This document shows positions 52,953-55,180 of a stretch of 64,000 bases of DNA, piece by piece; the stretch's first letter is position 1; every line of letters starts with the position of its first letter. This DNA comes from Calditrichota bacterium. GTDB taxonomy: Bacteria > Zhuqueibacterota > Zhuqueibacteria > Zhuqueibacterales > Geothermadaptataceae. The notes beneath the pieces were generated by a model that was given only the letters and a program-made list of their open reading frames with translations, was not told the origin of the DNA and made no database searches. The stretch spans positions 556,336 through 620,335 of the forward strand of contig QQUE01000002.1 of the NCBI GenBank assembly GCA_008501765.1. The letters are read 5' to 3'. Made by a program: the position numbers and the translations under genes.

Positions 52953-53267
52953 TTACCCTTCGATTTCAACAACAAGTTGAATTTCTCGCAAGATGCCCAT
53001 CACCTTGAAACAGGCTTTAAATTTACCTGTGAAAGCAACTGCTTTCCCCTTGAAATGGGCTTCAAGTGCAATGCTCTCAGCCTCAATATCATTGCACCCG
53101 GTGGCCTTCATAAGTTGAAGAATGACTTCATCAAATGAATGGATTTCATCGTTAAACAACAAGACCTTCCATGGAGCCTGCAATTTTGTGTCTGAATCAT
53201 CTTGTATGATTGTTTTGTCGTCAACTTCCGGAGCATCACTGGCGATTATTGGCGTGTACAAACTCAT
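52953..53267 (-). CDS. clpS: ClpS adaptor of the Clp protease
   Basis: 104 residues. The core WKVLLFNDEIHSFDEVILQLMKATGC corresponds to the ClpS 'VxLxNDDxxxxxxVxxxL' opening, and EAESIALEAHFKGKAVAFTG carries the substrate-pocket His region. ClpS binds ClpA/ClpC and delivers N-degron proteins for degradation. A disordered acidic N-terminal tail of about 30 residues (PIIASDAPEVDDKTIIQDD) precedes the core. The gene begins inside the end of mutY (32-base overlap), suggesting coupling to mutY translation. No clpA or clpC is in the window. Confidence 0.88.
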   Translation of the reverse strand: MSLYTPIIASDAPEVDDKTIIQDDSDTKLQAPWKVLLFNDEIHSFDEVILQLMKATGCNDIEAESIALEAHFKGKAVAFTGKFKACFKVMGILREIQLVVEIEG

Positions 53268-54402
53268 TTTCCAACTTCTGAATTATTTTTTTATTGGCTG
53301 CAGCAAACGGGTAGAATTTTAGCTCTGCAGGTCTGGCCCAATTCCAGTCCACGGCTGCATTTAACGGTGGCTCACCGTTTTTATACAAACAATGAAATAC
53401 GTGAAAAGTCATTTTAAAATGAGAATAAGCATGGTTGATTTCCATGATAAACTCTGCCGCTTCAGCATCAAAATTATAGGTATTTTTTAGCTCGCGTTCC
53501 AACACTTTTTGTGGTGTATCCTTCTTTTCAAAACGAAAACCGGGAAAATCCCACATGCCACCCAAAACACCCCCCATTTCCCGTTTTGCGATAAATATGT
53601 GGCCTTCATCCCACAAGATACCGACAGCAACATCGTGATGTGGTACTTTTTTGGCTTTCTGTTTCATCGGCAGGCGGGCTGGATTCTCGGTATTTTGATA
53701 AGCGCTGCACTGTTTTTCAACCGGGCATAAAAGACATTTAGGCTTCTGTGGTGTGCAGAGTGTTGCCCCAAGTTCCATCACAGCCTGGTTGTAATCACCG
53801 GCTCGATCTTTAAAAAGAATTTGTCGTGCCGTGTCACTAATTTCGCGCCGCGTGGCTGCCAAATGCGTTGATTCTTCGATTTTAAATAAACGGCAAATTA
53901 CGCGTGTTACATTGCCATCAACAACAGCTCGCGGTTCATTGCTGGCAATGCTGGCTATAGCAGCAGCGGTATATTCACCAATTCCCGGGATTTCCAGCAG
54001 CTCTGCAAAGGTAGCCGGAATATCCCCTTTTTTATTTTTTACGATGAATTGGGCTGCGTTGTACAGATTTCTTGCTCGGGCATAATATCCCAAACCTTCC
54101 CAAATCTTTAATACATCATCCAGATGTGCTTCAGCAAGGTGTTTGACCGTAGGAAAGACCTTTAAAAAAGCTGAATAATAGGCTGTTACTTTTGCAACTT
54201 GCGTCTGCTGTAGCATGACTTCAGATATCCAGATTTTATAAATATCCGTCGTTTTACGCCACGGTAAGTCGCGTTTTTCAGCATCATACCAGAGTAAAAT
54301 ATTTTTATGATATAATTTGATATCAAACGATTTGATAATAGACTCCAAATATCCATTCAAATAAGCGGTTGAAATAATAGAAAAAATCAACTCAAATTTC
54401 AA
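53236..54402 (-). CDS. mutY: A/G-specific adenine glycosylase (MutY)
   Basis: Up to 388 residues. Removes adenine mispaired with 8-oxoguanine. The catalytic Glu is in ISEVMLQQTQV, the HhH motif is LLEIPGIGEYTAAAI with the catalytic Asp in AVVDGNVTRV, and the 4Fe-4S site is C-x6-C-x2-C-x5-C (CTPQKPKCLLCPVEKQC). The C-terminal third is a NUDIX-like domain that recognises 8-oxoG (GGVLGGMWDFPGFRF). There is no ATG upstream of the core; TTG 54402 or TTG 54348 could be the start, so the first 15-25 residues are uncertain. It shares a transcript with clpS. Confidence 0.93.
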   Translation of the reverse strand: MKFELIFSIISTAYLNGYLESIIKSFDIKLYHKNILLWYDAEKRDLPWRKTTDIYKIWISEVMLQQTQVAKVTAYYSAFLKVFPTVKHLAEAHLDDVLKIWEGLGYYARARNLYNAAQFIVKNKKGDIPATFAELLEIPGIGEYTAAAIASIASNEPRAVVDGNVTRVICRLFKIEESTHLAATRREISDTARQILFKDRAGDYNQAVMELGATLCTPQKPKCLLCPVEKQCSAYQNTENPARLPMKQKAKKVPHHDVAVGILWDEGHIFIAKREMGGVLGGMWDFPGFRFEKKDTPQKVLERELKNTYNFDAEAAEFIMEINHAYSHFKMTFHVFHCLYKNGEPPLNAAVDWNWARPAELKFYPFAAANKKIIQKLENEFVHANNRQ

Positions 54403-54516: not shown

Positions 54517-54545
54517 TTGCGAACAAAGGGCATCTTTTGTATATT
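54517..54545 (+). promoter_or_regulatory. greA leader promoter
   Basis: TTGCGA (54517-54522) and TATATT (54540-54545) with an exact 17-base spacer; the TAnnTTT-like run after it also fits the FCB sigma-factor -7 element. It points toward the terminator at 54567 and greA. No other plus-strand gene lies between. Confidence 0.6.
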
Positions 54546-54566
54546 TTTTGTACCTGAAGTAAATAT

Positions 54567-54597
54567 AAACGCGTTATTTGAAATAACGCGTTTTTTT
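54567..54597 (+). terminator. Terminator in the greA leader (attenuator candidate)
   Basis: A 12-13-bp near-perfect AT/GC stem (AACGCGTTATT with its complement) closing a tiny loop, then seven T in the plus direction. It lies about 20 bases after the promoter and 104 bases before the greA ATG, with no plus-strand gene upstream. It should therefore end a short leader RNA rather than an upstream operon. Confidence 0.75.
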
Positions 54598-54700
54598 ATT
54601 TTCAGTTTATTTAAACAGCGATATTAGGGTAACGCAAGTAAATATAAAATTCGAATAAAAAATATCAAAAGACTCTTAATTGATTAAACAGGTAAAATTA

Positions 54701-55180
54701 ATGCAAGTATACTATTTTACAAAAAATGGTTACGAGAAATTACGAAAAGAAGTTGAGGCGCTGGAAAAATACCTCAAGACAGAAATAGCTGATGAAATCG
54801 GCAAGGCCCGCGAACACGGCGACCTGAAGGAAAATGCGGAATACGAGGCGGCAAAAAACAAGCAAGCAAATACGATGGCAAAACTGGGTTCGTTACAAGA
54901 GAGATTCCAAAATGCGCGTGTTATTCGAAAAGAAGATCTGCCGGCGGATATTGTTACTTTGGGAAAAACAGTGGAAATTCAGAAAGTTTCCAGCGGTGAC
55001 AAAATCACTTATTCCATCCTTGGTGATGGCGAGACTGATATCGATAAAGGCATAATAAGTTACCAGTCCCCTCTCGCAAAAGGATTGATGAAACACAAAG
55101 CAGGGGATCAGGTTACTGTTCAACTTCCTCGTGGTCCTGAAGAATTTAAAATATTAAGTATTGAATACTACGAAGACTGA
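54701..55180 (+). CDS. greA: Transcript cleavage factor GreA
   Basis: 159 residues. Rescues backtracked RNA polymerase by stimulating transcript cleavage in the secondary channel. The N-terminal coiled coil has the acidic tip AREHGDLKENAEYEAAK with the Asp and Glu that coordinate the catalytic magnesium, and the C-terminal FKBP-like domain (about residues 85-158) binds RNA polymerase. ATG 54701 is chosen because AGG lies nine bases upstream and the length is then typical; a TTG at 54680 would add seven residues. It is preceded by a promoter and a leader terminator and convergent with the CPXCG gene. Confidence 0.96.
   Translation: MQVYYFTKNGYEKLRKEVEALEKYLKTEIADEIGKAREHGDLKENAEYEAAKNKQANTMAKLGSLQERFQNARVIRKEDLPADIVTLGKTVEIQKVSSGDKITYSILGDGETDIDKGIISYQSPLAKGLMKHKAGDQVTVQLPRGPEEFKILSIEYYED

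Follow-up and report, generated by a model that had tools for sequence, protein, structure and literature searches.

A candidate terminator-based attenuator upstream of greA in Zhuqueibacterota, arranged like Escherichia coli GraL

Known greA leaders and the locus in the window

GraL, the array of greA leader RNAs of Escherichia coli, was reportedly described by Potrykus in 2010. About one third of transcripts read through this leader array (Dylewski 2019, PMC6829880; Rfam RF01769), and active GreA lowers the fraction in vivo with GraL in cis, that is, catalytically active GreA raises termination at GraL. The effect was seen in vivo and not in vitro, and a further factor is suspected (PMC6829880). 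On a broader scale, greA/rnk leaders were ranked seventh among attenuated gene families, with occurrences in Proteobacteria, Bacilli and Clostridia (Naville and Gautheret 2010, PMC2965389); Bacteroidetes-type lineages are not mentioned in the text of that paper.

We analysed a stretch of 64,000 nucleotides (hereafter the window) from a 5.9 Mb genome of the former candidate phylum KSB1, now named Zhuqueibacterota and a member of the FCB superphylum (PMC11683472). A first-pass annotation of the window had reported a promoter, a hairpin with seven T and greA at 54701, and all three are present at these places. Its remark that no plus-strand gene separates promoter and terminator was upheld as well, since no plausible one was found among the window ORFs and the nearest upstream gene, mutY, lies on the minus strand. 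The locus is organized as follows (f numbers denote families, f1 being that of the window).

53236-54402, minus strand: mutY, divergent neighbour, kept at every f1, f2 and f7 greA locus examined
54517-54545, plus strand: greA promoter, with -35 TTGCGA (54517-54522), 17-nt spacer and -10 TATATT (54540-54545)
54550-54566, plus strand: putative start (54550-54552, judged from the -10 position) and 5' segment of about 15 nt ahead of the hairpin
54567-54593, plus strand: putative terminator hairpin, a 13-bp perfect inverted repeat with 1-nt centre, predicted dG -12.2 kcal/mol
54591-54602, plus strand: U-tract TTTTTTTATTTT, predicted release at about 54594-54600
54603-54700, plus strand: read-through leader and greA ribosome-binding region
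54701-55180, plus strand: greA, 159 aa, with catalytic D41 and E44

The greA product contains GreA_GreB domains (5e-26 and 1e-20 in domain search), its start at ATG 54701 is supported by alignment with the MK/MQ.YYFT N-termini of relatives, and D41 and E44 are invariant throughout this alignment. Arms of the inverted repeat are AAACGCGTTATTT and AAATAACGCGTTT, separated by a single G; seven T (54591-54597) are followed by ATTTT. The hairpin is AU-rich, with four G-C pairs and moderate stability. If transcription starts at 54550 or 54552, a short transcript of about 43-51 nt would be expected. No sigma-70-like promoter lying wholly inside 54603-54700 was found by promoter scan.

Terminators were detected by a scanner that accepted hairpins only if they were compact, with loops of at most 10 nt and no more than -0.40 kcal/mol per nt, and were followed by at least five T in eight positions. 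As a positive control, it finds GraL in E. coli and in most Enterobacteria among the matches listed. None of 2000 dinucleotide shuffles of 54546-54700 yields a compact hairpin of -10 kcal/mol or lower together with at least five T of eight. Folding of the whole 176-nt leader is unexceptional (z -1.41), only the local hairpin being exceptional. The promoter matches the consensus in 9 of 12 positions, and because such sites occur 38 times in 10 kb, with 23 expected, it would be weak evidence if taken alone. It is made credible by relatives, where the same promoter, nearly always with 17-nt spacer, is located upstream of greA.

Two further features of the intergenic region were recorded. A 13-nt direct repeat, AAGTAAATATAAA, flanks the hairpin upstream (54557-54569) and downstream (54636-54648). 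On the minus strand, a promoter-like site (TTGATA-16-TATATT, 54668-54641, 10/12) reads through the palindrome towards mutY, in which direction the hairpin has a poorer T tail.

Compared with GraL, the locus shares divergence of greA from its neighbour, an intrinsic terminator placed in the 5' UTR about 15-20 nt past the promoter (yielding short RNAs some 37-59 nt long, the window RNA being predicted), a need for read-through to greA, and catalytic GreA residues. On the contrary, the leader sequences are unrelated, the neighbour is dacB in E. coli and mutY in the window, and overlapping sigma-70/sigma-E promoters of E. coli are replaced by the one sigma-70-like promoter seen here. The RF01769 covariance model matches E. 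coli and other Enterobacteria at 74-127 bits, but finds nothing in the window at gathering score, nor, at E<=1, in the window locus or any of 11 relatives. Rfam E-value matches in one f2 leader (L015) were rejected as chance microRNA matches far from the leader. Judged by these sequences, the arrangement would work like GraL but is not homologous to it. The order of promoter, terminator and greA that the first-pass annotation had likened to GraL is conserved in this distant FCB lineage, with no homology to the E. coli leader sequence.

The greA/rnk leaders of PMC2965389 are similar in that a terminator lies between promoter and greA across phyla without shared sequence. As in that survey, the window contains a sense intrinsic terminator less than 300 nt from the gene, with the upstream gene lying farther off (the hairpin ends 107 nt before the greA ATG, while the mutY ORF begins 164 nt on the other side), and terminator-gene synteny is conserved in relatives (30 of 43 leaders). 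The survey describes antiterminators; here, folding of 54545-54720 gave the terminator stem and weak A/U extensions, and revealed no structure of similar stability that could compete with the 13-bp stem. Since greA attenuators had already been predicted (PMC2965389), what we report is a known kind of element, extended to a new lineage and by a set of leaders with covariation support. The arrangement is less surprising than the first-pass annotation suggested, given that greA/rnk leaders of several phyla already count as an attenuator family (PMC2965389, RF01769).

Conservation and divergence of the leader within the class

We determined how often compact terminator hairpins of -10 kcal/mol or lower precede greA in the class, using mostly metagenome assemblies. 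They occur in 30 of 43 greA leaders as opposed to 3 of 56 control divergent 5' regions; leaving out the window, the counts are 29/42 and 3/56 (Fisher P 1e-11, relatedness not corrected). For controls we took the divergent intergenic regions of the window itself and of 20 stretches, each 20 kb long, in 12 class genomes including its own; control genes were called by a simple ORF rule, and the palindrome of the window was set aside. The 30 leaders fall in seven of nine families. Outside family f7, 35 of 36 leaders have a hairpin at the corresponding position, and 30 of the 36 satisfy the strict hairpin and U-tract criterion. Of the six strict misses, two have hairpins with long loops (L052, L053) and two have hairpins with poor T tails (L015, L024); the stem of L050 is weak, and in L057 a co-directional upstream gene ends just before greA.

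The hairpin of relatives is downstream of a promoter of the form TTGCGA/TTGCGT/TTGCTA/TTGATA/TTGAAA-17/18-TATATT. Its T-rich tail is kept, four T columns being invariant in alignments A2 and A3, and the distance from hairpin end to greA ATG ranges from 35 to 182 nt. Outside the class but within the phylum, hairpin-T structures are present in some greA leaders (f14, f19) and absent in others. One greA of family f15 (L203, genome G064) was seen by eye directly downstream of a 5S rRNA-like gene and its terminator.

Two types of GreA, sharing about 33% identity, are encoded at the greA loci. Type I (f1, f2, f7) always has divergent mutY. All seven f1 leaders share the stem core CGCGTT..AACGCG and good U-tracts; two stem pairs are changed on both sides, slight evidence with seven sequences and weak alone. 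Stems of f2 are either AACGCC..GGCGTT or GCCATTCC..GGAATGGC, and several f2 genomes have weaker tails. In the f2 leaders L015, L017, L018 and L024 the hairpin is conserved and the U-tract eroded, which would fit termination that has become weaker or has ceased to be intrinsic; the poor U-tract makes intrinsic termination doubtful there even though the hairpin is kept. Some f2 genomes (G009-G012, loci L034-L037) have a second short ORF resembling only the C-terminal part of GreA (27-30% identity), possibly a Rnk-like protein.

In f7, no compact hairpin was found in the greA leaders of seven genomes, while promoter and mutY neighbour are kept; in six of the seven the promoter, of the same type, stands 35-54 nt before the ATG, and in the remaining one (L011) the leader is longer and includes a terminator-like structure with a long loop. 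Since this promoter feeds greA without hairpin, it belongs to greA, and since f7 lives without the hairpin, the latter is dispensable.

Type II (f5, f6, f8-f11, f13) is not found beside mutY. In f6, f8 and f10 the promoter is mostly TTGACA-17-TAG[TC]TT, and the hairpin CAAACCGAA...TTCGGTTTG, also present in f13, begins 5-8 nt past the -10, approximately at +1. Conservation in an alignment of these leaders, running from -35 to ATG, is confined to the -35, the -10 region, hairpin arms, T run and Shine-Dalgarno sequence. Covarying stem changes in relatives, which the first-pass annotation had proposed to look for, are present in this group: 7 of 13 pairs show compensatory changes, a number reached in none of 500 shuffles, and sliding the partner strand destroys pairing. 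The other six pairs are invariant in sequence. Such a half-invariant stem starting at about +1 is unexpected and exceeds what termination alone would require. It resembles rimP leaders (PMC2965389), which also have an unusually conserved terminator stem before transcription-factor genes; gene and motif (GGGc...gCCC) are different.

We also noted that PF03449, the GreA/GreB N-terminal domain, went undetected in all f3 and f4 genomes tested and in most f5 genomes. Genomes of the class lacking it include G015, G020 and G025 (f3) and G016, G021 and G026 (f4), several being more than 95% complete. GreA thus seems to have been lost in whole families (f3, f4 and most of f5).

Specificity to greA and other readings of the hairpin

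The f6/f8/f10 hairpin begins near +1, where a 5' stem-loop would protect mRNA, and it is conceivable that the structure stabilizes the greA message while transcription passes it without termination. Poor U-tracts of some f2 leaders would agree with this. Stability needs no T-rich tail, however, and one immediately follows the hairpin in nearly all f1, f6, f8 and f10 leaders; moreover, with its end 35-182 nt ahead of the ATG, the hairpin leaves the ribosome-binding site uncovered. We regard this function as unlikely.

Each f1 genome, like each of the type II genomes listed, has the fully complementary stem at a single place, greA; the stem is hence not a dispersed element. The informative search pattern was the longer CAAACCG...TCGGTTTG; AAACCG...CGGTTT was discarded as too loose, giving many background matches. 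A dispersed repeat was likewise rejected, as the sole other genome match to the leader (40 nt, 85%, at L002) is a hairpin beside an acyl-CoA hydrolase/transferase-like gene. In genome G023, a 26-bp stretch, AAACCGTTAAGAGAAGCATGCGGTTT, is present five times (contigs C2, C36, C50, C58 and C63), twice less than 60 nt from a contig end, which suggests a repeated element.

This specificity bears on whether the leader might be an independent gene for a trans-acting sRNA of about 45 nt, with greA transcribed mainly from its own downstream promoter. The transcription unit is complete, the six invariant pairs of the f6/f8/f10 stem are not needed by a plain terminator, and E. coli GraL acts in trans too (PMC6829880). 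Yet the hairpin is always before greA and nowhere else in each genome, the window has no promoter-like site wholly between hairpin and ATG, and the f7 promoter of the same type feeds greA directly. In genus g36 (L052/L053), only 35 nt separate hairpin end and ATG, leaving no room for a second promoter, so that greA must be transcribed through the hairpin. A separate sRNA gene is therefore quite improbable; a dual cis/trans role would be compatible with attenuation.

Finally, the 27-bp palindrome is very improbable as the site of a dimeric repressor in the mutY-greA intergenic region: it is a perfect DNA palindrome between two divergent promoters, the minus-strand one reading through it, but half-site spacing varies widely among relatives, pairing rather than sequence is kept between families, the sense strand of greA carries the T run, and the structure persists in families without mutY as neighbour.

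Proposed mechanism and its significance

We consider it likely that the greA leader acts as a terminator-based transcription attenuator in cis. RNA polymerase would start at the conserved promoter, and the hairpin would form once about 45 nt are made. A large share of complexes probably stop at hairpin and U-tract, giving the 43-51-nt RNA, and the remaining ones would read through to produce greA mRNA. What the sequences show is a promoter, a hairpin and a U-tract in that order, conserved, specific to greA and with compensatory changes in the stem; partial termination and the short RNA are what we infer from them. As has been reported for E. coli (PMC6829880), either GreA or the pausing state of the polymerase may determine how much transcription reads through. 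By this analogy, a response of the attenuator to GreA itself is proposed only tentatively. Altogether, expression of greA in this phylum is probably restrained where its own transcript begins.

Convergence with GraL, as the first-pass annotation supposed, is only partly shown: unrelated stems and different gene neighbourhoods speak for repeated origin, but descent from one ancestral leader whose sequence has since turned over completely is also possible. A bolder reading, on balance doubtful, is that greA attenuation in Zhuqueibacterota arose independently of GraL and more than once, and that f6, f8, f10 and f13 make an ultra-short RNA of about 45 nt, consisting of little but the terminator, whose invariant stem might be recognised as sequence by polymerase with GreA, by another factor or by trans targets.

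Unrelated leaders of the same layout in a distant phylum offer independent natural versions of the question of GraL-type control. Shared features (a hairpin within about 45 nt of the start, a U-tract, catalytic GreA) can be separated from accidents of lineage, hairpin-less f7 genomes serve as natural controls, and the invariant f6/f8/f10 stem is a testable hint of sequence recognition. If the bolder reading is true, feedback within the first 45 nt or so of the transcript would be a recurrent bacterial way to set GreA dosage.
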